Positions 8,698 through 63,446 are shown, counted from the stretch's first letter. The stretch is 64,000 nt of DNA from Actinobacteria bacterium 69-20 (GCA_001897425.1 MKSW01000033.1:354717-418716), one strand, 5' to 3'. The notes: generated from the letters alone by a model not told the origin. Translations and numbers: made by a program.

Positions 8698-10326
8698 CTA
8701 TCCGGAGGCACGCAGCAGCAACCAGAGCACCAGACGCTCGTCCGGATCGTCCAGATTGAGCCCGAAGATCTCTGTCATCCTGCGCATCCGGTGTCGAAAC
8801 GTGTTCTGGTGCAGGAATATTCGGCTCGACGCGGTGGGCACGTCACCGAAACAGTCCAGGTATGCGCGCAGGGTGTCCAGATAGCCGGTTCCCTTGTCCG
8901 CGTCGTGCGCGCACATCCGGTCCAGCACCTCGAGGGACAGCCGCGGGTCGCCGGCGATGATGTCCTGTAGATGCAGCAGGATGGTCCTGCTGCGGACGTC
9001 CGCGATGGTCGCAACAGCCGGCCCGTCGACACGCTCGGCCAACACCTGCAAGACCCGGTCGGCATCCGCCCGGGAGTGCGCGACCGCGGCGAGATCGCCG
9101 ACCGTGCCGCCGATCCCGGCTCGCAGGCGCACCCGCAGCGACTCGAAGGCCCGAGTGAGCACGCGACCGACCAGCGCCGGCAGCACCGCGCGATCGGCGC
9201 CCCGACCGGTGGGCAGCAACGCGTAGATGGTCCCGCCCAGCGTCAGGCAGGCGGCCATCCGGTGCTGGCTCTCGCAGAACACCGTCACGAGGTCGGCCGT
9301 GCGGGCCAACAACGTGCCATCCGCATCATCGGCGGAGCCGTCGATCTGGAAGCCGACCACCGTCACATCGTGGCTGTCGACCGTCGGCAGCACCTCGACG
9401 GCCGGTCCCGGACGGCCCAGCAGTACCGCACGAAGCGCCTCGCCGCGCGCAGCACGCTCCAGATCCGCAGTGGTGCGCAGCCGCAAGATGTGCAAGGAGG
9501 CCAGCCGCGCCGCGTCAGCCAGCGCACGCTCCGCGTCTGGGGGAAACCCGTCGTTCCCCTCGATGGCCCAGATCGACCCGATGGGTTCGTCGCCGGCCCG
9601 GATCGCGGCAGCCAACCGCGGCCGGATCCCTGGAACCTCGACCCGCTGCACGGACTTGCTACGCCGAACCTGGTCGTAGAGGTCCGCCAGCCGGAACTCT
9701 GCCGGTACCCGTCGCCCCAGGATGCCGGCCTGCCGCGCGTCATCGATGGGCTGACCCGGCACGTTGGAATAGGCGAGCACGTGCTGGTGCGGGTCCTCGA
9801 TCGCGATGGCGCCACCCACCATGGCTGCAACGGCGTTGGCCAGCGCGAACAGGTCCCCGGTGACGACAGCGGACAGCGGCTCCCGGCGGGCGCCCCGATC
9901 GCCCGCCACGGTGGCGGACAGCAGGAGGTGCAGATGCGGCCACGGCACCGCGTCGTCCACCAGCAGCAGTGCAATACGCCCCGATTCGGCAGCTCTGACG
10001 GCTGGCGCAAGGTCGTCGCCGTACGCCTTGACCACGACCGCGGCCACCTCGGCGGCCGCAGCCTGCCGGATCGCGGAGGCGGTGACGGGATCGGCGGGCC
10101 GGCAGCCGACCGCAAGCAGCAGCGTTCTTGGCCCGGGCGCAACCCCTTCGGCGATGTCCAGCAGGACGGGCTCGCCGGCAACCACATCGGGCCCGCGAGG
10201 CAGGCAGAGTGCCTGCAGCACCGGCGGGCCCACCGCGGCCAGCACCGACTGGAGCGTGTTCGCCCCGGCGGTCGGCACGGCACTCGGCACGGCACTCGAC
10301 ACGGCGGTGGGCACGGCGGTGGTCAC
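8698..10326 (-). CDS. PucR family transcriptional regulator
   Basis: C-terminal HTH FLHQNTFRHRMRRMTEIFGLNLDDPDERLVLWLLLR; N-terminal PucR-like sensory region. Confidence 0.85.
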   Translation of the reverse strand: MTTAVPTAVSSAVPSAVPTAGANTLQSVLAAVGPPVLQALCLPRGPDVVAGEPVLLDIAEGVAPGPRTLLLAVGCRPADPVTASAIRQAAAAEVAAVVVKAYGDDLAPAVRAAESGRIALLLVDDAVPWPHLHLLLSATVAGDRGARREPLSAVVTGDLFALANAVAAMVGGAIAIEDPHQHVLAYSNVPGQPIDDARQAGILGRRVPAEFRLADLYDQVRRSKSVQRVEVPGIRPRLAAAIRAGDEPIGSIWAIEGNDGFPPDAERALADAARLASLHILRLRTTADLERAARGEALRAVLLGRPGPAVEVLPTVDSHDVTVVGFQIDGSADDADGTLLARTADLVTVFCESQHRMAACLTLGGTIYALLPTGRGADRAVLPALVGRVLTRAFESLRVRLRAGIGGTVGDLAAVAHSRADADRVLQVLAERVDGPAVATIADVRSRTILLHLQDIIAGDPRLSLEVLDRMCAHDADKGTGYLDTLRAYLDCFGDVPTASSRIFLHQNTFRHRMRRMTEIFGLNLDDPDERLVLWLLLRASG

Positions 10327-19788: not shown

Positions 19789-19837
19789 GGGGGCCGTCCT
19801 TTCGGTCGAAAGTGGTTCGCTGTTCGGGCTTGTCGAG

Positions 19838-19850
19838 TATGACGATGTTC
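19838..19850 (+). repeat. TATGACG-NN-GTTC motif, csoR-copZ spacer
   Basis: GAG-TATGACGATGTTC-GCG. Confidence 0.85.
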
Positions 19851-22471: not shown

Positions 22472-23496
22472 ACACCGAAAGAACCGAGTATGACGCCGTT
22501 CTCGCCGATCCCGCCGGCGTGGCACCACGGGAACCGATGCGCGTGCTGGTCGCCGGCGGTGCCGGGTACATCGGCTCCGTGGTCACTCGGCTGCTCATCG
22601 CCGAGGGGCACCACGTCACCGTGCTCGATGACCTGTCCACCGGGCACGCCGACGCGGTACCCTCGGGCGTAGAGCTGGTGCGGGCGGACATCGCCGACGC
22701 CGGAACGATTCTCGCCCGCGGAGGCTTCGACGGGGTGTTGCATTTCGCGGCGAAGTCCCTGGTCGGTGAGTCGGTGTCGGACCCTGCGAAGTACTGGCGG
22801 ACGAACGTTTGCGGCACCCGCGCCCTGCTGGACGCGGTCGCCGAGTTCTCCGTGCCGCGCCTCGTGTTCTCCTCGACGGCGGCGGTCTACGGCGAGCCGG
22901 ATGCGATCCCGATCACCGAGGACGCACCCACCCGACCCACGAATCCCTATGGGGCGTCGAAACTGTCGGTCGACATGATGCTCGCGGGCGAGTGCGCCGC
23001 GACCGGCCTCGGCGCGGTGAGCCTGCGCTACTTCAACGTGGCCGGGGCGGCCTGGGGCGCGGGTGAGCGGCACGGCACCGAGACACACCTGATCCCGCTG
23101 GCCCTGGACGCGGCCGCCGGGCGCCGCGGCCCGTTGACGATCTTCGGGGAGGACTGGCCCACCCCGGACGGCACCCCGATCCGCGACTACATCCACGTCG
23201 CAGACCTCGCCCGGGCGCATGTCCTGGCGCTCGGCGCGGCGACCGCCGGCCGACACCTGATCTGCAATCTCGGTTCGGGGCAAGGGTTCTCGGTGCGTCA
23301 GGTACTTGACGCCGTCACGAACGTCACCGGCCTGGACGTCCCGCAGCAGGTCGGCCCGCGCCGCGCCGGCGACCCGGCTCGGCTAATCGCCTCCCACGAA
23401 AGGGCGCGCGCGGAACTGGGCTGGGCGCCGCAGCAGGGCTTGGCGGACATGGTCCGCGATGCCTGGGATTTCGCCGCAAACCTGGCGAATCGATGA
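22468..23496 (+). CDS. galE: UDP-glucose 4-epimerase
   Basis: MRVLVAGGAGYIGSVVTRLLIAEGHHVTVLDDLSTGH; Y-x3-K (YGASK). GTG at 22468 overlaps galT stop; alternative ATG at 22537. Confidence 0.93.
   Translation: MNTERTEYDAVLADPAGVAPREPMRVLVAGGAGYIGSVVTRLLIAEGHHVTVLDDLSTGHADAVPSGVELVRADIADAGTILARGGFDGVLHFAAKSLVGESVSDPAKYWRTNVCGTRALLDAVAEFSVPRLVFSSTAAVYGEPDAIPITEDAPTRPTNPYGASKLSVDMMLAGECAATGLGAVSLRYFNVAGAAWGAGERHGTETHLIPLALDAAAGRRGPLTIFGEDWPTPDGTPIRDYIHVADLARAHVLALGAATAGRHLICNLGSGQGFSVRQVLDAVTNVTGLDVPQQVGPRRAGDPARLIASHERARAELGWAPQQGLADMVRDAWDFAANLANR
22489..22501 (+). repeat. TATGACG-NN-GTTC motif at galT-galE junction
   Basis: GAG-TATGACGCCGTTC-TCG. Confidence 0.8.
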
Positions 23497-28404: not shown

Positions 28405-28407
28405 GAA

Positions 28408-28420
28408 TATGACGAAGTTC
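28408..28420 (+). repeat. TATGACG-NN-GTTC motif upstream of ROK gene
   Basis: TATGACGAAGTTC. Confidence 0.8.
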
Positions 28421-35638: not shown

Positions 35639-35651
35639 GAACAGCGTCATA
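35639..35651 (-). repeat. TATGACG-NN-GTTC motif overlapping thioesterase stop codon
   Basis: GAACAGCGTCATA; the gene's TGA stop lies within TATGACG. Confidence 0.8.
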
Positions 35652-36072
35652 CCGTCGGCCTGATATACGACAGCGTGGAGTGCGCCACCAGGTCGCCGTT
35701 CGCGTCGAACACCTCGGCCTGGCCGAACGCGATGCGCCGTCCGAGTTTCAGAAGCCTTGCGGTGCCGGTGATGTCGCCGCTCGTGCCGCGCAGGAACGAG
35801 GTCTTCATCTCGATCGTGACGGCCATCGGCTCGGAGCCGACTCGCGTCATGATCGCGAGCCACATCGCGAGATCGGCGACCACCTCGTAACTGGCGCCGT
35901 GCAGCACGCCGCCGGGCCGCAGCAGGTGCGGGGCGGACGCGAGGGCCACGGTCGCCGTGCCGTCACCGACGTCGACGACGGTCAGGCCCCACCATCGGCA
36001 GAAGGGCTGGCTCGACACCAGGCCCCGCGCCTCGTCCAGGGTGAAGGTCGCGGTATCGGTATCGTCGTCCAT
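35647..36072 (-). CDS. PaaI-type hotdog thioesterase
   Basis: RPGGVLHGASYEVVADLAMWLAIMTRVG...; ATG at 36072. Confidence 0.82.
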   Translation of the reverse strand: MDDDTDTATFTLDEARGLVSSQPFCRWWGLTVVDVGDGTATVALASAPHLLRPGGVLHGASYEVVADLAMWLAIMTRVGSEPMAVTIEMKTSFLRGTSGDITGTARLLKLGRRIAFGQAEVFDANGDLVAHSTLSYIRPTV

Positions 36073-39547: not shown

Positions 39548-39613
39548 AGCGACCACCTCCTGGTAGAGAGAAGACAACCTCAAACTACGCCGAATTTTGC
39601 CGCGACGATCGGG

Positions 39614-39626
39614 CATGACGCTGTTC
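39614..39626 (+). repeat. TATGACG-NN-GTTC motif, 1 mismatch, intergenic
   Basis: CATGACGCTGTTC. Confidence 0.65.
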
Positions 39627-40523: not shown

Positions 40524-41108
40524 TCAGTCGGGGAGCGGCACGCGGAAGGTCCGGAGGGTGAGGGCGAGCAGGTCGTAGTAGCCGACGAGGATGACGAGGT
40601 CCACGACCGCGCGCGTTCCGAGAAGGTCCTCGAGTTGCTCGAAGGTGTTCTGACTGAGGTCGCGATCGAGTAGGAGCTCCCGGACGGCCCCATGCACGAG
40701 AGCATCGTCATACTCGAAAAAACCGGCGTCCTGGCGGGCGATGGCTTCGAGCATGTCGTCGGTGAGCCCGGCCGCGGCGGCAGGCCCCGCGTGCGCCCAC
40801 CACTCGAATTCGCTGCGCCGCTCGGCGGCGACGGTGAGGACGGCGAGTTCGCGGACGCGGCCGGAAAGCGCGCTGCCGTAACGGATTCCGGCGCCGAGCC
40901 GTTGCAGAGCGTCGCCGACGGCGGGGCTCGCCTGCACCATGGCGTTGAACGGGCCGAGCAGCCGACCGTCAATATCGACCAGCGCCGTCGGGCCGTCATG
41001 GGCGGTTCGCGGGCCGGCGACGATCGCGTCGTACACCCGGCGCGCCTCGTGGCCGAGGTCGTCGGGCGCCGGCCAAGGCAGCCGCCCGGTGCGCACGCCA
41101 TCGCTCAT
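40524..41108 (-). CDS. Carboxymuconolactone decarboxylase family protein
   Basis: RVRELAVLTVAAERRSEFEWWAHAGPAAAAGL; ATG at 41108. Confidence 0.83.
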   Translation of the reverse strand: MSDGVRTGRLPWPAPDDLGHEARRVYDAIVAGPRTAHDGPTALVDIDGRLLGPFNAMVQASPAVGDALQRLGAGIRYGSALSGRVRELAVLTVAAERRSEFEWWAHAGPAAAAGLTDDMLEAIARQDAGFFEYDDALVHGAVRELLLDRDLSQNTFEQLEDLLGTRAVVDLVILVGYYDLLALTLRTFRVPLPD

Positions 41109-43486: not shown

Positions 43487-43890
43487 GCATGGAACTGTTC
43501 TTCGACATCACCACGTTCGTGCTGGCGCTGCTGGTCGGATTCGAGGTGATCTCGAAGGTCCCGGCGACGCTGCACACGCCGCTGATGTCCGCGGCGAACG
43601 CGATCCACGGCGTCGTGTTCATCGGGGCACTGATCATCACGGCCGCGGCGCGCGGACCGTTCGGGTACACGATCGCCTTCATCGCGATGGTGCTGGCCGG
43701 GATGAACGTGGTCGGCGGCTATGCGGTCACCGACCGCATGTTGGAGATGTTCAAGGCGAAACCCGCGCCCAAACCGGCGGCGGAGGCTGTGCCGAGTTCG
43801 GCGCTGCCGAATGCTGAAGCGGCGAACCTCGTCATACCCGAAACCACAGCCGACGGAACCGGCAGCCGGACGAACGGGGGTGCGGCATGA
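43483..43890 (+). CDS. NAD(P) transhydrogenase alpha subunit part 2
   Basis: VLALLVGFEVISKVPATLHTPLMSAANAIHGVVFIGAL...VVGGYAVTDRMLEMFK. Confidence 0.93.
   Translation: MSMELFFDITTFVLALLVGFEVISKVPATLHTPLMSAANAIHGVVFIGALIITAAARGPFGYTIAFIAMVLAGMNVVGGYAVTDRMLEMFKAKPAPKPAAEAVPSSALPNAEAANLVIPETTADGTGSRTNGGAA
43824..43836 (-). repeat. TATGACG-NN-GTTC motif in C-terminal tail of transhydrogenase alpha-2
   Basis: GAACCTCGTCATA encoding NLVI. Confidence 0.75.
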
Positions 43891-45805: not shown

Positions 45806-45937
45806 CGGTGCCCGCCGCCCGGGTTGCGGTGGGGTGCCTCCCGTTTGCGCGGGTGTCAACGGGTATGACGCTGTTCGCGCCGTCACCGGCGCGGGGCGAT
45901 CCTCGCACCGAGGTGCAGGCCGATGGCGACCGCCGAG
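45798..45937 (+). repeat. Dispersed repeat C copy 1 (~140 bp)
   Basis: ACGCCTGACGGTGCCCGC...GGGGTGCCTCCCGTTTGCGCGGGTGTC.ACGG.TATGACG.TGTTCGCGCCGTCACCGGCG...CCGATGGCGACCGC. Confidence 0.9.
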
Positions 45938-45970: not shown

Positions 45971-46522
45971 CTACTCGATGATGCGGATGATCTCCGCGGC
46001 CGCCGCGACGAACGCGGGATGGTCGACCGTGAGCGTGACGACATCGGTGACGTGCAGTGCGGCGCTGTCCCACAGGCCGACGCTGCCCCAGTCGGGGTTG
46101 TAGTAGGACCACCAGCGCACCCCGGCATACTGGCCACCCTCGAAGAGTTCACGCGCCCAGGCCTGGGTCACCTCCCTGTCGCGGGTGACGACACGTGGCG
46201 GACGTAGGCCGAGGCTGGCGAGTCTGTCGGCGTCGTCCAGGTCGCAGACCGCAGCGTGGCCGCCGAGGTCGTACGCGACGAGAGCACGGACGCTCCCGGG
46301 CAGGGCAGGGCTTCCCCGCAGCAGGCCCGCGTTCCACCGCGGTGCCCAGCCGAACGCTTCCGCGACGGCGCACTGCGGGCTGTCGCCGAGGTAGAGAACG
46401 TCATAGGCGCCGGGATTGTCGACGCGGTTCGCGCCGGTAGAGGTCGGCACGAACATCGGGTGTCCGGGCTCACCGTCGGTTGCAGCGGGTAGGTAAGGCA
46501 GTACCCGGTAATACGTCGTCAT
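45971..46522 (-). CDS. RES-domain toxin
   Basis: RVLPYLPA...TGANRVDNPGAYDVLYLGDSPQCAVAEAFG; paired with DUF2384-type antitoxin. Confidence 0.85.
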   Translation of the reverse strand: MTTYYRVLPYLPAATDGEPGHPMFVPTSTGANRVDNPGAYDVLYLGDSPQCAVAEAFGWAPRWNAGLLRGSPALPGSVRALVAYDLGGHAAVCDLDDADRLASLGLRPPRVVTRDREVTQAWARELFEGGQYAGVRWWSYYNPDWGSVGLWDSAALHVTDVVTLTVDHPAFVAAAAEIIRIIE

Positions 46523-46525
46523 CGC

Positions 46526-46975
46526 TCAGGCGAATGCGCCCACGGTCAGGGCGTCGATGGCGGGCAGGATCGCCGCCGCCCCGCGCAATTGAAGTACGTC
46601 GATCGGCCGGGCACCGCCCAGGTGCGGGTTCGGGCCGGTCAGCCATAGTCCTGCCTGGTCCGGGTATAACTCCAGCAGCAGCCGGTCCAGCACATGGTCC
46701 AAGTCCGAGATCCGCTTTCGGTTCTCCGGGGACAGCCGTTCCTGGCCCGAACGCCACCGAGACGGCTGACTCCGGGAGACCCCGAGCAGGTCGGCCACCA
46801 CATTGTTGCCGAGCGCCTCGATCACCCGGGAGACCGGACCCGCCGCGGCGTAGCCCGCCTCGGCGGCGGATGAGACCCTGATACTGGCCAGCGTGGCCGC
46901 GCGGCGCCGAGCACCTCGACCCCGCACGGCCGAGCCGCGACCGGCGCTCACCACATCGATGGCCTTGCCCGTCAT
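46526..46975 (-). CDS. MbcA/ParS/Xre-type antitoxin
   Basis: VIEALGNNVVADLLGVSRSQPSRWRSGQERLSPENRKRISDLDHVLDRLLLEL...LWLTGPNPHLGGARPIDVLQ. Confidence 0.85.
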   Translation of the reverse strand: MTGKAIDVVSAGRGSAVRGRGARRRAATLASIRVSSAAEAGYAAAGPVSRVIEALGNNVVADLLGVSRSQPSRWRSGQERLSPENRKRISDLDHVLDRLLLELYPDQAGLWLTGPNPHLGGARPIDVLQLRGAAAILPAIDALTVGAFA

Positions 46976-49293: not shown

Positions 49294-49433
49294 ACGCCTG
49301 ACGGTGCCCGCTACTCCGGTTGCGTTGGGGTGCCTCCCGTTTGCGCGGGTGTCGACGGATATGACGATGTTCGCGCCGTCACCGGCGGCGGGCGATCTTC
49401 GCGCCGAGAAGCACGCCGATGGCGACCGCTGCG
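49294..49433 (+). repeat. Dispersed repeat C copy 2 (~140 bp), overlapping 3' end of coxG-like gene
   Basis: See 45798-45937. Confidence 0.9.
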
Positions 49434-56042: not shown

Positions 56043-56480
56043 TCACACGAGCTCCACGTCGCAAGGCAGGCTCGGTGCGGCGCCGAGTCGGCTGTCTGCC
56101 GTGATCAGCGGGATCTGCAGTGCGACAGCGAGTGCGACGTACAGCGCGTCGTAGAACGTCAGGTTGTGGCGCAAAGCCCATGCGGCTTCGGAGAGAGCAC
56201 GGCCGTGCGCGTACCGACGGTCGATCAGCACCCGTGCCGCACGAAGAGCGTCGATCGCCTCGACCGACGCGAGCAAGCCGACACGTTCGTGTCGGCGCAA
56301 GACGTTGCCGACCTCCGCGTCGATCAGATGCGGAGCGTGCGTGCGGATCTGCGACATCCGGGACCTCAGCGCCGCCGCGTCGGCGCTTTTCCCGCCGACG
56401 GCGAACGCCAGCGCCGAGGCATCGATCACCCGATCGGTCGGGTCCGGAGGTCGGCCCTCGCTGCCCGAGGCGTGCGTCAC
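56043..56480 (-). CDS. VapC PIN-domain toxin
   Basis: VIDASALAFAVGG...APHLIDAEVGNVLRRHERVG...YDALYVALAVALQIPLITADSRLG. Confidence 0.9.
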   Translation of the reverse strand: MTHASGSEGRPPDPTDRVIDASALAFAVGGKSADAAALRSRMSQIRTHAPHLIDAEVGNVLRRHERVGLLASVEAIDALRAARVLIDRRYAHGRALSEAAWALRHNLTFYDALYVALAVALQIPLITADSRLGAAPSLPCDVELV

Positions 56481-56713
56481 CGGCGGTCTGCGACGAGAGC
56501 GGCGAGTACGGATTCGCGGGTCGCACCGGGCGTGGACACTGCGGCGAGCCGCTCCTCCAGGGCCGCGAGAGCTTCCCGGGCGGTCGGCGTGCTGGCCATG
56601 TCGATCACCTGCTCCCGCATATACGACTGGATGGATCGTCCCTCGGCGCGCGCGCGGCGGCGAATGACCTCGTACGCCTCTTCGGGCAGGTCACGGATCT
56701 GAATCGTCGCCAT
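56477..56713 (-). CDS. VapB/FitA-like ribbon-helix-helix antitoxin
   Basis: MATIQIRDLPEEAYEVIRRRARAEGRSIQSYMREQVID. Confidence 0.9.
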   Translation of the reverse strand: MATIQIRDLPEEAYEVIRRRARAEGRSIQSYMREQVIDMASTPTAREALAALEERLAAVSTPGATRESVLAALVADRR

Positions 56714-56786
56714 GGGGTGATGGTAGCGCTATTTCAGCGCTGTAGCGCGATTGCTCGACGGACGGTCCCGCGCAGGTCGGCACGCC

Positions 56787-57100
56787 GGGTATGACGATGT
56801 TCGGTGGCCGCGGTCGTGCTGCGTCGTTCTGCGTCGCGCTGGCCGGTGGGGCGGGCGCGTGTTGACCGTCACTGTCCTTGTCAACCGAATTGTCGCTGCC
56901 TGTGCCGATGACCGAGCGAGTTCGGTCGCCGCGGCGGAGCCGACCGGCAGTGCACATCGGCGCGTCGACGGGTCCTAAACTCACGAATCTGACGCCGGGG
57001 GGTCCGGCGGAATCAACTACTCGCGGTAACTGACTCTGCTCAGTTCCGTCGGCGGTGCGCAGTGCCCGTGGGCGGATCGGCTTGTGGCGATCAGAACGAC
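56787..57100 (+). repeat. Dispersed repeat B copy 1 (~310 bp)
   Basis: Begins at TATGACGATGTTC; shares GACCGTCACTGTCCTTGTCAACCGAAT..., CCGGCAGTGCACATCGGCGCG, GGAATCAACTACTCGC, CTGACTCTGCTCAG, CCGTCGGCGGTGCGCAGTGCCC with 61521-61826. Confidence 0.92.
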
Positions 57101-57114
57101 GACGGCGGAGCTTC

Positions 57115-57609
57115 TCAGTCGTGCGCGGTGGTCGCTTCCGTTGCGGCCCGGAAGCGCTCCAGGTATAGCGGCCAGCCGTTGCCGGTGTCCAAGGTTGTGA
57201 ATCCTTGCCAGCCGTCACCGTGCCGGTCGAGGTGCCTGTGTTCGAGCATGACGCGTGTGCGCTCGGGTGTTTCGGGGACGAACCGTATCTCGACTTCGCT
57301 GGTGTGGGTCGGGTCGGGTTCGATGGTCCATCGCGGACTGATATCCCAGCTGATCAAGAGCCGATGTGGCGGCTCGAAGGCGAGGACTCTTGCCCATGTG
57401 CAGACGCTGCCGTCAATACCCACGTCGTAGATGGTGCCGCCGACGCGAGGTTCGAGCACGGTCCGTTCGATCGGGACGGCGAGCAGATTGTGGTCCTTCG
57501 GTTTTATGTCGTCGAACCGTTCGGTGAACACGCGGAATGCGTGCCCGACGGGCACGTCCACGGTGATCTCGGTGTTGAGGCTGGTCTTTTCTTGCGATGT
57601 GGTGCTCAT
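57115..57609 (-). CDS. SRPBCC/AHSA1 family protein
   Basis: MSTTSQEKTSLNTEITVDVPVGHAFRVFTERFDDIKP...HRLLISWDISPRW. Confidence 0.87.
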   Translation of the reverse strand: MSTTSQEKTSLNTEITVDVPVGHAFRVFTERFDDIKPKDHNLLAVPIERTVLEPRVGGTIYDVGIDGSVCTWARVLAFEPPHRLLISWDISPRWTIEPDPTHTSEVEIRFVPETPERTRVMLEHRHLDRHGDGWQGFTTLDTGNGWPLYLERFRAATEATTAHD

Positions 57610-57953
57610 GGTGACGTTCCTTCCGATGCTTGGGTGGTCGCCTGGTAGCTCTGCTCGGCCAGGGTCTTGAGAGTGGTCAACGTCTGGGTCCAGTAGGTCT
57701 CGAGCTCCTGGCGAAGCTGGTTTAGACCGTCGGGGCGGGGTTGATACAGCTGTTCCCGGCCCCGCCGTCGGACGTCGACCAGTTCGGCCTGGAGCAGCAC
57801 GCGTAGATGCTGCGACACCGCCGGGCGACTCACCGGCAGCTGGCGTGCGATCTCGGTCACCGAACACGGGCCGGACGCGACGTGACTGAAGACGCGACGC
57901 CGAGTCTCGCTTGCCAACGCCGTCCAAGGGTCCACGGCAGTGAAAACTTCCAT
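57606..57953 (-). CDS. ArsR family transcriptional regulator
   Basis: MEVFTAVDPWTALASETRRRVFSHVASGPCSVTEIARQLPVSRPAVSQHLRVLLQAELVDVRRRGREQLYQ; start overlaps downstream SRPBCC gene. Confidence 0.92.
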   Translation of the reverse strand: MEVFTAVDPWTALASETRRRVFSHVASGPCSVTEIARQLPVSRPAVSQHLRVLLQAELVDVRRRGREQLYQPRPDGLNQLRQELETYWTQTLTTLKTLAEQSYQATTQASEGTSP

Positions 57954-58355
57954 AACGCGTAAGGTAACACTTACGTGTTTTGGAAGCAAGGGGGCTACTC
58001 TCCACTGCCAGAGCACCGGCGCTTACCGGGGGCCCGGTAGCCGAACGCGCAGCTCGACCACCTCGACACCCTGACCACCGGCAACAACCTCGCCAACTGG
58101 CAAAGGACGACCAAGGCACAGGTCGCCGCGCGAGACCGCGTATTCCGCAACTCCAACGATGAGCGGCGACCACCGCCAGGACGAATCAGACAGCCGGCAA
58201 GATCGGACGAGGCCGACTTCAACCCGCAAGTGGATCGCCCACTGGCCAAGCGCCGACCGACCGGACGAGGCCGGGCGTCGGAGGTGAAGGCCAGGTCGTG
58301 GCCGAGCCAGCCGGAATGCCTGCGTCATGGATACCGAGGCGAGAGAGCGGCGGAC

Positions 58356-58916
58356 TCAGCTGCCTCGTTGGCGTGCGAGTCCGCGCCCCGGGGGTGTGAG
58401 AGACGTTGCGACGATGAGGTTGTCGACCGCCGTACGTTGCCCCGAGATGCGGATGTTCGGGAGTTGTTCGGCGTCGACTCCGCCGACCATCCAGGCCTTC
58501 CAGTCGAGCGTGGTGGCCGACACCTCGGCATCAACTGGTGCCGGCTCCATCGATTTGTCGATGCGCGTTCTCTGCCGCGATATCCGTGCCAGGTAGGAGG
58601 CGGGGTCGCCATCGCCACGCCTGGAGTCGGTCAGATGCAGGGCGACGCGTTGTCCAGCCGTGACACCGGGCACCCGGCGTGCGTGCGCGCGCATCGCCAG
58701 CACGAGCGAGTCGGGGCTCATATCCGCGTCGCGCGGCAATGTCGGGGAGGCGGCTGCCCACAGCGACAATGCGGCATTGACGGCCTCGAGCCTGTATCCC
58801 CACTCGGTGAGTTCATAGACCTCGGGTCGCCCCGGCACAGCCAGTCGTCGCCGGCACACAATTCCGTGCGATTCCAGGTGCTGAAGGCGCTGTGTGAGAG
58901 CGGCGGGTCCGTCGCT
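58356..58916 (-). pseudogene. 5'-truncated HxlR-type winged-helix regulator
   Basis: Reading frame opens directly after the TAG stop of the upstream lipoprotein gene: SDGPAALTQRLQHLESHGIVCRRRLAVPGRPEVYELTEWGYRLEAVNAALSLWA...; N-terminal half of the HTH missing. Confidence 0.65.
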
Positions 58917-59450
58917 CTAACCCGTGACTCGTGGGGGAGTGGAGTCGTCGGCGCTGCCGGGCGACCACCGCACCGCATCGTCGCACATGACTGTGCCGGA
59001 AGCCGGCCTGGCCGCGCAGGCGGCGTCGACGAGCTCGCGTTGCCCGATCGGTTCGTCGAGTTCCACGGTGTACGGAACCTGCTCGTTGCCTTGGCAGCTC
59101 TGGTCGCCCACGATCGGCTCGAGGTGTACGGCGATGGCAATCTGTTCATCCTGGTAGTCCACGTCGGCCCCGACGATCTTGCCGGTCTTGCCGCTGGCGC
59201 AGTCGACGCGCTGAACCTGCACGTGCACCGCCCGGTCGGCAGGCTTCACCGCGGCGGGATCGGCAACATCCCAGGTGGCTTGGGTGCCGTAGGGCTTCTC
59301 CGGTTGATTCGCTTCTGAATCGTCGCCCGCGGCCGCCCAGTTGGGGACGCCGCAAGACGCGAGAACCAGCACGGCAATCAGCGCACTAGCAAAGCTTCCG
59401 ACGCGGTTTCGACGCGGAGCTTTCCGCGGCGTGCGGTCGGTGGATCGCAT
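58917..59450 (-). CDS. Hypothetical lipoprotein
   Basis: SFASALIAVLVLASCGVPNWAAAG lipobox; DUF4352-like/secreted. Confidence 0.6.
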   Translation of the reverse strand: MRSTDRTPRKAPRRNRVGSFASALIAVLVLASCGVPNWAAAGDDSEANQPEKPYGTQATWDVADPAAVKPADRAVHVQVQRVDCASGKTGKIVGADVDYQDEQIAIAVHLEPIVGDQSCQGNEQVPYTVELDEPIGQRELVDAACAARPASGTVMCDDAVRWSPGSADDSTPPRVTG

Positions 59451-59528
59451 ACATCTCTCCTCGCCCGCGCGGCTGACAGCCCATCATCATAATTTTGTCA
59501 CCGCGTGCATGGGCAGAGGATAGGTGCC

Positions 59529-59798
59529 ATGACGAGTCATCGGGATCGCGCGGTCGCCATCGCCGAGCAGATCGCGTTAGACGCCGCCATGGCACACCTG
59601 CACGTCGAGATCGAAGTGCAGGACACCATTCACGACTGCGCGCTGATCAACGTCTCGTTCGGTGGCGACGGCTTCCTCGTCGAGGTCAGCGCCCGCACCG
59701 ACGACGTACACGTCCTGGACCCGTCAGACGTCGACATGTCCGTAACAGACCTGTCCCGCTATGTGATCACACGCGCCTCCATCGCGGGCCAGCCGTAG
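59529..59798 (+). CDS. Hypothetical protein
   Basis: MTSHRDRAVAIAEQIALDAAMAHLHVEIEVQDTIHDCALINVSFGGDGFLVEV; in-frame ATG at 59529. Confidence 0.5.
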   Translation: MTSHRDRAVAIAEQIALDAAMAHLHVEIEVQDTIHDCALINVSFGGDGFLVEVSARTDDVHVLDPSDVDMSVTDLSRYVITRASIAGQP

Positions 59799-59915
59799 GG
59801 TCTCGGCGGGTCTGCCCCGCTCCTGTCGCCGGTGCGGCTCGCCTGATCGATTCGACCGCCACGTAACGAGTCACCATCGCAGCACGCTCGTCTACATTTC
59901 GTCTACTATGACGTC

Positions 59916-60149
59916 ATGGCTACCGACACAACAACAGTCCGCGTCCGGCGACCGGACTCCGAGCGCCTTCAATCGCTTGCCAAGGACCGGCAGGCCACGG
60001 TGATCGACGTGGTGCATGAGGCCATCGACGCACTGGAGCGGCGCGAGTTCCTACGCGGGCTCGATGGTGATTACCAGCGCCTGCGCGATGACCCCGAGCG
60101 TTGGCAGCAGTACTTGGCCGAACGCGCCGAGTGGGACACCCTGGCTTGA
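59916..60149 (+). CDS. MazE-like antitoxin
   Basis: MATDTTTVRVRRPDSERLQSLAKDRQATVIDVVHEAIDALERREFLRGLDGDYQRLRDDPERWQQYLAERAEWD. Confidence 0.85.
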   Translation: MATDTTTVRVRRPDSERLQSLAKDRQATVIDVVHEAIDALERREFLRGLDGDYQRLRDDPERWQQYLAERAEWDTLA

Positions 60150-60481
60150 CCTGGCGCGGGGAGGTCTACCACGTCGACCTCGGCAGACCGATCGGCCACG
60201 AACCGGCGTTCCGCCGGCCAGCGGTTGTCGTATCCGTCGACGTCCTGAACAACGGTGCGGGCGGGTTGGTGATCGTCGTTCCGGTCACCACCACCGGGTA
60301 CGGGCTTCGCAGCCATGTCGAGCTGGAGCCGGAGCACAGCGGGCTCGACCACACCTCGTACGCCCGCTGCGATCAGCTGCGGGTCGTCTCGACCGAACGC
60401 ATGACGACCCGGCAAGGGATGATCGCGCCGGGCACGATGCGACTGATCGATCAAGCCCTGCGGTTCGTCCTCGATCTCTGA
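60146..60481 (+). CDS. MazF/PemK-like toxin
   Basis: TTG start overlaps antitoxin TGA; LTWRGEVYHVDLGRPIGHEPAFRRPAVVVSVDVLNN...VVPVTTTGYG...CDQLRVVSTERM. Confidence 0.9.
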   Translation: MTWRGEVYHVDLGRPIGHEPAFRRPAVVVSVDVLNNGAGGLVIVVPVTTTGYGLRSHVELEPEHSGLDHTSYARCDQLRVVSTERMTTRQGMIAPGTMRLIDQALRFVLDL

Positions 60482-60527
60482 CCGGCCACCTGTTCGCGGC
60501 GCGGCCACGGAGTCTAACCGCAGAGTA

Positions 60528-60752
60528 ACGCACGGTAATCGCGCTGGAAAATGCCCACGCGACCAACCGCAGCCGAGAAGTACTCGTCGCGAGCCAGTGC
60601 GGCAGCGTCAACGCGCCGACCGGCTCGGGACCGTATCGGGTCGGGACCATCGAGTATGACGATGTTCCGTGGCCGGACCGTTCGAGAACCCCTGCCCGCC
60701 GGGGCGGGCCCGGCACGAAACGTCGTCATACTCGGGGAGACCCGCGCGGACG
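60528..60752 (+). repeat. Dispersed repeat A copy 1 (~225 bp)
   Basis: ACGCACGGTAATCGCGCTGGAAAATGCCCACGYGACC...GTGCGGCAGCGTCAACGCGCCGACCGGCTC...CATCGAGTATGACGATGTTCCG...CGTCGTCATACT.GGGGAGACCCGCGCGG shared with 63146-63372. Confidence 0.95.
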
Positions 60753-60761
60753 CGGGCAGAG

Positions 60762-61199
60762 CTATCCGGCGACTCGGAGGGGATCGGACCAGCGCAGGTT
60801 CGGGAAGCGGGCGAAACCGCTGTCGTGGGATTGCAACTCCAAGCCGTGGCCGAGGGCGAGCGCGGCGAGGTGCACGTCCGGGACGTCGTCCGACTTCAGG
60901 CCGGGCGTCGTGAGCAGGTGCTCGACGAGCGCGGCGTGGTCGGGCGTGGCCGTCGGCACCCAAGCCACCGGGGAGGACAACCACTGCTGAACCTGCTGCC
61001 AGGCCTGCGGCATCGTCACGGCATCACGAAACATTCGGACGTTCGTCGCCAACCGTACGAAAGACATCGTGACTTCCCAAGGCAGTCCGACGCGATGCGG
61101 CCCGCCGAGAACCCCCTCGAACCACGAGAGGGCGGCTTCGTGCTCGCTCGCGCGGCTATCAAACGCGTAGACGAGAAGGTTGGTGTCGACGAGGATCAT
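60762..61199 (-). CDS. VapC PIN-domain toxin
   Basis: MILVDTNLLVYAFDSRASEHEAALSWFEGVL...VPDVHLAALALGHGLELQSHDSGFARFPNLRWSDPL. Confidence 0.92.
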   Translation of the reverse strand: MILVDTNLLVYAFDSRASEHEAALSWFEGVLGGPHRVGLPWEVTMSFVRLATNVRMFRDAVTMPQAWQQVQQWLSSPVAWVPTATPDHAALVEHLLTTPGLKSDDVPDVHLAALALGHGLELQSHDSGFARFPNLRWSDPLRVAG

Positions 61200-61459
61200 G
61201 AGCGCGGCGGGTGAGCGAGATGGGCGTACTTCTCCTCGTCGAGCATCGCGATCACGGCGCTCACATCGGCGATGTCCACCCTCGCACCGAGGGGGCGCGG
61301 GTGCGTGTAGACGACCTTCGCATCACCCGCCGGCGACGCCGGGTGCAGGCCCGCGCGCAGCGTCTCGTTGAGCACGGCCTTGAAGCTGCGCCGCTCCGCA
61401 CGCTGGCGCGCGACGAGCTCGGCTGCCACATCATCGTCCAAGGTCACGGTGGTTCGCAT
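61196..61459 (-). CDS. VapB-like ribbon-helix-helix antitoxin
   Basis: MRTTVTLDDDVAAELVARQRAERRSFKAVLNETLRAGL. Confidence 0.9.
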   Translation of the reverse strand: MRTTVTLDDDVAAELVARQRAERRSFKAVLNETLRAGLHPASPAGDAKVVYTHPRPLGARVDIADVSAVIAMLDEEKYAHLAHPPRS

Positions 61460-61520
61460 GCGTCACATCATATCGTTGATGCGTTGATGCGTGATGGGAA
61501 TCGTCGAGAGCGGGATTTTC

Positions 61521-61826
61521 GAGTATGACGATGTTCCGCGGTGGGCCTAGTCTGCGAAGCCCTGGCCGGCAGGGGCGGGCGCGTACTGACCGTCACTGTC
61601 CTTGTCAACCGAATCGTCGTCGTCTGTGACGATGACCGAGCGAGTTCCGTTGCCACGGTGGGGTCGACCGGCAGTGCACATCGGCGCGCCGGCGGGTTCT
61701 AAACTCGCCAATCTGACGCCGGAGAGCAGCCGGAATCAACTACTCGCAGTGACTGACTCTGCTCAGCTCCGTCGGCGGTGCGCAGTGCCCATGGGCGGAT
61801 CCTTCAGCGATGTCGCGGTCAGAACG
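61521..61826 (+). repeat. Dispersed repeat B copy 2 (~305 bp)
   Basis: See copy at 56787-57100; also shares ~60-bp core with repeat A copy 2. Confidence 0.92.
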
Positions 61827-62283
61827 GTGACATCTGGTCCAGGATCTTCTCGGCGATGCCGAGAATGTCTTTCACCCTCGGGATGTCGTCTTCGACGTCC
61901 TCGGTCGTAAGCTCCGGTGCATCCGCCGGCGGGTACTCCGCGTCGCGTCGGTGGCGCCGCATGCGGTCGAACGGCCGCAGCTGCTGACCCATCGGCGGAT
62001 CAAGCTGCGCGCGGACTGCGTGGTAGGCCGCCAGGTGGCCGCCAGCGGTGGTCGGCCGGAGGCCCTGGTTCTCCAGGATCGACCACAGCGCTTTGCGGGC
62101 GGCGTCGTAGAGCAGCGCATAGGCACCCTCGGGGTCGGCGTCTGCTGTCCGTATGGCGCTGACCAAGTGCCGTCGCGCCTGAGCCAACACGCGATCGGCG
62201 TGCTCGCGGCTGGCCGGGACCCGCTGCAGATGCTTGTCTGCGAGCAGCTTTTCGATCTCTGCGCGGCCCTGGTCCCACCTCAT
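61819..62283 (-). CDS. HEPN-domain protein (SAV_6107-like) of HEPN-MNT TA module
   Basis: MRWDQGRAEIEKLLADKHLQRVPASREHADRVLAQARRHLVSA...DAARKALWSILENQGLRPTTAGGH...FDRMRRHRRDAEYP; adjacent MNT gene. Confidence 0.8.
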   Translation of the reverse strand: MRWDQGRAEIEKLLADKHLQRVPASREHADRVLAQARRHLVSAIRTADADPEGAYALLYDAARKALWSILENQGLRPTTAGGHLAAYHAVRAQLDPPMGQQLRPFDRMRRHRRDAEYPPADAPELTTEDVEDDIPRVKDILGIAEKILDQMSPF

Positions 62284-62885
62284 CGACCCACCTCGGTATC
62301 GGTGACGGCCAGCTCGATCAACGGGCGCGACCGGATCGACGACAGGAACGCGTCGGCGTTCGGCGGCTGCTCCCACACGCTCGCACGCACGCGTCGGATG
62401 TTCACCTCGCGGCCGCCGAGACGGCGTTCGGCACGCTGGGCGGCAAGGTCAAGATCGTCAGGGTCGGCATCGCCGACGACCAGTACGTCGACGTCGTTCG
62501 GCGGCGGGCCTGCTTCGCCGCTGTAGCGAGCAGCCCAAGATCCATACAAGAACGCCTTCCCGATCCCCGGAACCTTCCGCAACTCCTCGGTCAGGACCGG
62601 CATCGGCCCGTAGGTCACCACGAGCAGGTCGGTCAACGGCCGACTCAGCAGCGAATCGGTCACGGCCCGCACCAGGCGGTTGTTACCTTGGCGCCGATCG
62701 GCCAGGATCCGCGCGACGACCAGACGGTCTACTTCCTGCTGCGTCGCCTTCACCGACGCGCCGATGCGACGGGCAGCCTCGGTGACGGTGTACTCCTGCT
62801 CTGGGTTCAGGTAGGTCAGGGCGAGGAGGTTGCCCTGGACCTGGGAGCGCAGCAACGGCAGCAACGCCGGCGGTTCAGCTCTCAT
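62280..62885 (-). CDS. MNT-type nucleotidyltransferase antitoxin with N-terminal wHTH
   Basis: AFLYGSWAARYSGEAGPPPNDVDVLVVG (GSx..DxD); ATGA overlap with HEPN gene. Confidence 0.87.
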   Translation of the reverse strand: MRAEPPALLPLLRSQVQGNLLALTYLNPEQEYTVTEAARRIGASVKATQQEVDRLVVARILADRRQGNNRLVRAVTDSLLSRPLTDLLVVTYGPMPVLTEELRKVPGIGKAFLYGSWAARYSGEAGPPPNDVDVLVVGDADPDDLDLAAQRAERRLGGREVNIRRVRASVWEQPPNADAFLSSIRSRPLIELAVTDTEVGR

Positions 62886-63145
62886 AAGACTTCCATCTTC
62901 CTATACCTCATAGGTGAATTGCAAGGCGATGGTGCCAGGTGGCTCGGCTGACTTGGCCGCAAGCGAACTCGCTACGGGACGTCGAGGGTCCGGGCGAGGT
63001 TGGGTCCGCACAAGTGGATCTCCATCACCGTATGGACCGCCCGCTGCTCGTCGCCGGGACACGGGCGTCCTGCGGTACCGCGGTGTCCGGTGCAGCAAAG
63101 CCGTCGGGCGCGTCGCCGGACGTACCCCTGAGCGGCCGCAGATCT

Positions 63146-63372
63146 ACGCACGGTAATCGCGCTGGAAAATGCCCACGTGACCGACCGCAGCCGAGAGGTA
63201 CTCGCCGCGAGCCGGTGCGGCAGCGTCAACGCGCCGACCGGCTCAGGACCGCATCGGGTCGGGTCCATCGAGTATGACGATGTTCCGGGGTGGGCCTCGT
63301 CCGCAAAGCCCCGGCCGGCGGGGCGGGCGCGGCGCGGAACGTCGTCATACTGGGGAGACCCGCGCGGGCGCG
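63146..63372 (+). repeat. Dispersed repeat A copy 2 (~225 bp)
   Basis: Same orientation as 60528-60752; contains inverted TATGACG...CGTCATA pair at 63273 and 63337. Confidence 0.95.
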
Positions 63373-63446
63373 CGCCGTCGCGCCGACGAGTGCCGCTCTC
63401 GGCCCATTGGCGACGAGCCGCGGGAGAACGGACGAACGAAGGCCGT

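Follow-up and report, generated by a model that had tools for sequence, protein, structure and literature searches.

A non-coding repeat beside toxin–antitoxin genes of a Nakamurella genome points to a clade-specific 17-bp word that most resembles DNA uptake sequences

Introduction

DNA uptake signals have been described from two proteobacterial families that are unrelated to each other. The DNA uptake sequences (DUS) of Neisseriaceae and the uptake signal sequences (USS) of Pasteurellaceae are numerous, lack orientation bias and are found most often at permissive sites of the core genome; they often pair in inverted orientation at gene ends, and lineages have dialects of their own (PMC2397512, PMC3630211, PMC1852404, PMC2346458). 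Here we analyzed 64,000 nucleotides of Actinobacteria bacterium 69-20 (GCA_001897425.1, MKSW01000033.1:354717-418716), referred to as the window, which is C33:354717-418716 of one 4.48-Mb draft genome (G000). The window contains two copies (B1 and B2) of the non-coding repeat B, each lying upstream of a vapB antitoxin gene. A sequence-only reading had proposed that B is a transcribed RNA, a shared regulatory island or a mobile element inserting near toxin–antitoxin (TA) promoters. Our results show instead that B opens with part of a genome-wide 17-bp word, which may work like a DUS or USS.

Results

B opens with part of the most over-represented word of the genome

The quantitative motif work was based on 1.65 Mb of the 69-20 genome, and the comparison set comprised 17 Nakamurella genomes: 69-20, its sister G003 and 15 others. 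The motif coordinates of G003 are identical to those of the metagenome-assembled genome Nakamurella sp. HJP_bin23, which places the 69-20 genome in Nakamurella; the 69-20 genome and G003, with DNA identity of ∼92%, are treated as one genus.

The first 16 bases of B are part of a word with the consensus CGRGTATGACGMTGTTC, whose centre ATGACG is invariant among 92 sites. TATGACG is the most over-represented 7-mer (210 observed versus 26 expected in 459 kb); with up to two mismatches, GAGTATGACGATGTTC occurs at 466 sites in the 69-20 genome, compared to 2 for the reversed control. The sequence-only reading had noticed the opening TATGACGATGTTC but missed that it belongs to this word.

The exact 17-mer is present 216 times in the 69-20 genome (116+100) and 155 times in the sister (91+64), whereas 297 other genomes sampled from the order contain one copy (control, 0), and the 15 other Nakamurella species are essentially without the word. 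An 18-mer search of 84,980 GTDB species, a set from which the species of the window may be left out, matched 63 stretches; about two thirds belong to HJP_bin23, the sole species with many matches, and the others are scattered singletons. Ten other Nakamurella genomes were screened for dialect words of their own, and none comparable was found apart from one array in G007 that resembles a long clustered regularly interspaced short palindromic repeat (CRISPR) array; at G007:C1:1000001-1080000, words such as ATGTTCCCCG and CACACGCGGGG occur more than 60 times in 80 kb. As a separate observation, GGTCAGCG or its reverse complement is ∼3-fold over-represented in samples of G001, G002, G004, G011, G012 and G013, possibly reflecting stop-codon context. 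One iterated position matrix for the 17-bp word drifted to codon bias and was dropped.

The word is enriched between genes and near gene ends

With up to two mismatches, the 1.65 Mb contain 270 sites: 129 intergenic, 120 coding and 21 on gene edges. Genes were called with a custom codon-usage script, and the split is approximate; by this measure, site density is 520 per Mb between genes and 85 per Mb within them (∼6-fold), and the coding share is one third to nearly half. The two strands carry 139 and 131 sites, and the ratio stays near 1:1 within each 50 kb. The median distance to gene 3′ ends is 54 bp, compared to 119 bp for 5′ ends, and the coding sites are biased toward both gene termini. 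Besides B, the window has nine further copies, five intergenic and four coding, and its complete inverted pairs are the hairpins S1 and S2 (Table 1).

The word replaces existing bases

In ksgA, the word is common to the 69-20 genome and the sister, and it encodes TEYDDVLEVGPG where the 15 other species carry sequences such as LRSTDHVLEVGPG; the alignment of all 17 species is gapless. One SDR gene represents a second case of this kind, also without gap. Between the 69-20 genome and the sister, perfect sites are mostly retained, and gains and losses are mostly gapless, for example GAGTATGACGATGTTC versus GCGGATGACGTAGCTC. Ten of the 12 remote homologue pairs are gapless at the word, with a control gap rate of 0.25. 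The gapless ksgA and SDR alignments, together with the changes between the sisters, count against a mobile insert and favour point change or recombination, with the word retained afterwards. On these data, the word arises at existing positions, by substitution and not by insertion.

B is the junction of two unlike elements

B1 (56786-57078) and B2 (61520-61801) share 84% identity over 294 alignment columns (E ∼1e-86), and they lie 74 and 62 bp upstream of the minus-strand antitoxin starts at 56713 and 61459, respectively. The similarity and placement described from the sequence are thus confirmed. The two antitoxins do differ in type, as had been noted: the first is FitA-like with an RHH domain, and the second has no Pfam match. 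The toxins of both pairs contain the PIN domain (Pfam).

Searching the whole 69-20 genome with B2 returned four long matches, followed by short ones limited to its first 20–85 bases. The opening ∼65–75 bp of B recurs as the arms of the S hairpins at 60651 and 63268 and also as the genome-wide motif; the last ∼215 bp, termed the core, stands elsewhere without the opening part. On anatomy and distribution, we conclude with high confidence that B is the junction of an S-hairpin arm and the core, each distributed differently.

The 69-20 genome has six core copies, B1, B2 and four others; they lie in separate places, and the best four are 78–88% identical, which does not agree with a single segmental duplication as the source of the similarity. 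A profile search of the 17 Nakamurella genomes found these six strong copies and none convincing in the sister or the 15 others. Among 100 relatives, the core matched the 69-20 genome only, plus a single 29-bp chance match; plasmids, phages, viral contigs and GTDB contigs gave no match. A gene or shared reading frame in the core was ruled out by stops in nearly all frames and by indels. The core folds no better than its shuffles (z −0.15 and 0.15 on the two strands), and the Rfam scan matched no family; the proposed structured RNA is not borne out.

Read in reverse, the core begins 18 bp past the HEPN gene stop at B2, 37 bp past the AHSA1 gene at B1, and, for another copy, 39 bp past one RelE-like gene adjoining a Phd/YefM antitoxin. 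The copy on C1 starts where a MerR-like gene ends, and copy C2 (on C13) lies ∼270 bp past a DUF7019 gene. In this orientation, a gene stop stands just upstream of four of the five copies with readable surroundings. All five are in TA-rich surroundings; the C13 copies are flanked by RES/Xre and MazEF pairs, with one RES/Xre pair adjoining copy C2. The sequence-only reading had suggested tabulating the neighbours of all copies: the TA-rich setting held for the five readable ones, and the copies other than B1 and B2 stand at gene 3′ ends and not upstream of antitoxins. The association of the core with TA regions is partly upheld; with ∼50 PIN-domain genes, the 69-20 genome is heavily loaded with VapC-like toxins, which makes TA proximity less surprising.

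The sister locus lacks the core

The region G003:C94:4495-10204 is syntenic with the window locus. The sister has both vapBC pairs (orthologues were read from translations) and no core upstream of either. Upstream of its second vapB, one intact S hairpin leads straight into a nucleoside-hydrolase gene, whereas the window has at the same place an S-left arm, the core, the HEPN gene, the nucleotidyltransferase (MNT-like) gene, A2 and complete S2. Sister positions 9477-9540 match 61520-61583 and also 63268-63331. The block 56786-60734 is of the same build (S-left arm, core, AHSA1, further sequence, MazEF, A1 and S1), and different genes stand there in the sister. The segments 60518-60757 and 63136-63375 form one ∼240-bp repeat of 88% identity with the S hairpin at its end; only these two copies are present in the 1.65 Mb. 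The synteny breaks coincide with S elements.

Because the S hairpin of the sister is single and complete, gain in the window is favoured over loss in the sister. With moderate confidence, we interpret B2 as the left edge of a gained HEPN/MNT block set into an S hairpin, not as a vapB regulator. Recombination at the hairpin would have brought in the HEPN/MNT cassette, with the core as its 3′ flank, so that B2 became the left edge and A2-S2 the right edge; B1 would be the edge of a second block built alike. A mobile or cassette-linked element near TA genes is partly supported, by the TA-rich places of the five readable copies and by the position of B2 at the edge of a HEPN/MNT block absent in the sister.

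Two side observations concern other TA genes. The 3′ part of the MazF gene (60211-60506) has one 95.6% duplicate at G000:C33:520254-520549, apparently fused to another reading frame. In addition, the window has a RES/Xre TA pair at 45971-46975.

Table 1. Features of the window (window positions) and other core copies of the 69-20 genome (contig positions)
Feature	Position	Strand	Evidence or remark
Motif copy GGGTATGACGATGTTC opening B1	56787..56802	+	consensus CGRGTATGACGMTGTTC
S-hairpin left arm of B1, degenerate	56786..56860	+	alignment with S1, S2 and sister S
Core copy B1, ∼215 bp, non-coding	56862..57079	+	nhmmer C33:411578-411795, E 9.7e-70; alignment A3
Perfect motif copy opening B2	61521..61536	+	motif scan
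S-hairpin left arm of B2	61519..61583	+	91% identical to S2 left arm; in sister belongs to one intact hairpin
Core copy B2	61587..61801	+	C33:416303-416517, E 2.1e-68; end 18 bp from HEPN gene stop
S1, complete hairpin of two inverted motif copies	60651..60734		DNA fold z −5.06
S2, complete hairpin	63268..63352		DNA fold z −5.76; continuous with sister C94:9477 onward
A1 repeat, right-hand flank of unit 1, runs into S1	60518..60650	+	similarity to A2
A2 repeat, right-hand flank of unit 2, runs into S2	63136..63268	+	alignment
FitA-like RHH antitoxin, first VapBC pair	56477..56713	-	Pfam; sister orthologue without core
PIN toxin, first VapBC pair	56043..56480	-	Pfam
Antitoxin, second VapBC pair	61196..61459	-	no Pfam match; orthologue in sister
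PIN toxin, second VapBC pair	60762..61199	-	Pfam
HEPN-domain gene of putatively acquired block	61819..62283	-	Pfam HEPN E 1.1e-4, above cut-off; not at sister locus
Nucleotidyltransferase (MNT-like) gene of putatively acquired block	62280..62885	-	NTP_transf_2 E 0.005, below cut-off; not at sister locus
Core copy, no S part	C13:64004-64220		genome search
Core copy, no S part	C13:65432-65627		genome search
Core copy, no S part	C33:63640-63827		profile search, E 2.8e-28
Core copy, no S part	C1:76240-76381		profile search, E 2.6e-14
Further motif copies	19835-19850, 22486-22501, 28405-28420, 35639-35654, 39611-39626		motif scan
Further motif copies (continued)	40700-40715, 43824-43839, 45861-45876, 49357-49372		motif scan

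Discussion

Taken as a whole, the explanation that we prefer is that the 17-bp word works like a DUS or USS, to which we assign a probability of about 0.5. We do not claim membership of these classes; the word most resembles them, agreeing in the sequence-level features examined apart from even spacing. To our knowledge, such a system would be without precedent beyond Neisseriaceae and Pasteurellaceae and would be the first of its kind in Actinomycetota; in the papers that we searched, neither TATGACG repeats nor an actinobacterial uptake sequence had been described. Tentatively, at slightly less than even odds, the signal may have arisen independently for self-recognition in one small Nakamurella clade, caught early while its congeners are without it.

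Like the DUS of Neisseriaceae, the Nakamurella word is short and asymmetric, with an invariant centre and hundreds to thousands of copies; both are found on the two strands, denser between genes, in inverted pairs near gene ends, as a lineage-specific dialect, and in permissive places of conserved regions of genomes with type IV pilus genes (PMC2397512, PMC3630211, PMC1852404). Different from the DUS, the word belongs to the phylum Actinomycetota, is unrelated in sequence, is longer (∼17 bp) and has fewer perfect copies (216 in 4.5 Mb). The receptor of the DUS is the minor pilin ComP. With the USS of Pasteurellaceae, the word shares a long degenerate motif round a fixed centre and coding copies toward gene termini (PMC2346458), but it differs in sequence and phylum and has no AT-rich flanking tracts.

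If the word is an uptake signal, a minor pilin of the type IV pilus would recognize it, and DNA carrying it would be imported through ComEA/ComEC. The word would have accumulated by substitution and biased recombination, and copies facing each other would have a secondary use as hairpins at gene ends. The 69-20 genome encodes ComEA (a ComEA-like HHH_3/SLBB protein) and ComEC in tandem, together with PilB, PilT, PilC, PilM and N-methyl prepilins; a type IV pilus cluster lies at G000:C17:70000-89999, and one of its several prepilins has putative Ig domains. PilB matches as strong as that of 69-20 are found in only 5 of the 17 Nakamurella genomes.

Several observations weigh against the uptake explanation. 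ComEC is present in all 17 species, and PilB in the motif-free G001, G006 and G011; because the machinery is thus not limited to species that have the word, it permits the uptake function but neither predicts the word nor proves the function. The spacing of sites is random to slightly clustered (coefficient of variation 1.11, compared to 0.93 for random placement) and not even, although USS distributions have been published as apparently random (PMC2346458), and even spacing is thus not strictly defining. Few intergenic sites are in inverted pairs, with close inverted TATGACG at 5–6 of 56. The word is confined to a single clade represented by two genomes, and one of these is a metagenome assembly. 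Finally, the cassette step draws on one comparison, and the event could be a loss in the sister instead.

Other explanations of the word have to be weighed against these. A binding site of some chromosome-organising or recombination protein (a nucleoid factor, or a Chi- or KOPS-like (FtsK-orienting polar sequence) site), unrelated to uptake, agrees with the high copy number, the conserved centre and the mixed coding and intergenic placement. However, the lack of orientation bias in any 50-kb stretch means that the word is not Chi- or KOPS-like as known, and absence from 15 other species of the genus is unexpected for a housekeeping site; we consider this explanation unlikely. Even less probable is a mobile palindrome resembling repetitive extragenic palindromes (REPs) or miniature inverted-repeat transposable elements (MITEs), spreading by insertion and with B as a larger member. 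Although S1 and S2 fold well as hairpins (z about −5) and synteny breaks at S elements, most copies are single non-palindromic words, a substantial share of them coding, sister differences are mostly gapless, and the ksgA word replaced bases with length unchanged, which already contradicts insertion at that gene. REPs and bacterial interspersed mosaic elements (BIMEs) with REP-associated tyrosine transposases (RAYTs) are likewise short repeats with intergenic enrichment and some hairpins; the Nakamurella word differs in being non-palindromic, in lying inside genes and in arising without insertion (no RAYT search was made).

For B itself, a regulatory element of the vapB promoter region or a structured RNA is very improbable. 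The similar spacing of the two copies from the two antitoxin starts suits such a role, but the sister keeps both vapBC pairs without core upstream, which largely refutes it and leaves the shared regulatory island unsupported; the remaining copies are not upstream of antitoxins, and neither fold nor Rfam gave a signal. For the core alone, the chances are nearly even that it travels with TA and other cassettes as a functional element at their 3′ side, acting as terminator, stabiliser or recombination tail; this is compatible with the uptake explanation. Its reverse starts 18–39 bp past the HEPN, AHSA1 and RelE-like stops and at the MerR-like gene end suit this role, as do the TA-rich places of all five copies examined; neither strand folds stably, however, AHSA1, MerR and DUF7019 genes are not TA genes, and the abundance of PIN genes weakens the significance of TA proximity. 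The tail (attC) of integron gene cassettes is similarly a non-coding repeat at the 3′ end (in reverse orientation) of variable genes, including TA genes, but the core has no attC-like fold, no R-box by eye and no cassette array (no integrase search was made).

The data do not support B as a TA-linked regulatory repeat; its value is that of a pointer to a clade-specific, DUS-like genome watermark. The repeat illustrates the probable swapping of TA-rich blocks at hairpins made from the 17-bp word. Even if the 17-bp word has no role in uptake, no other word of the genome is as over-represented. Two sister species have the word and 15 congeners essentially lack it; its origin, its spread and its cost to proteins, such as the altered ksgA segment, are therefore measurable against near outgroups.

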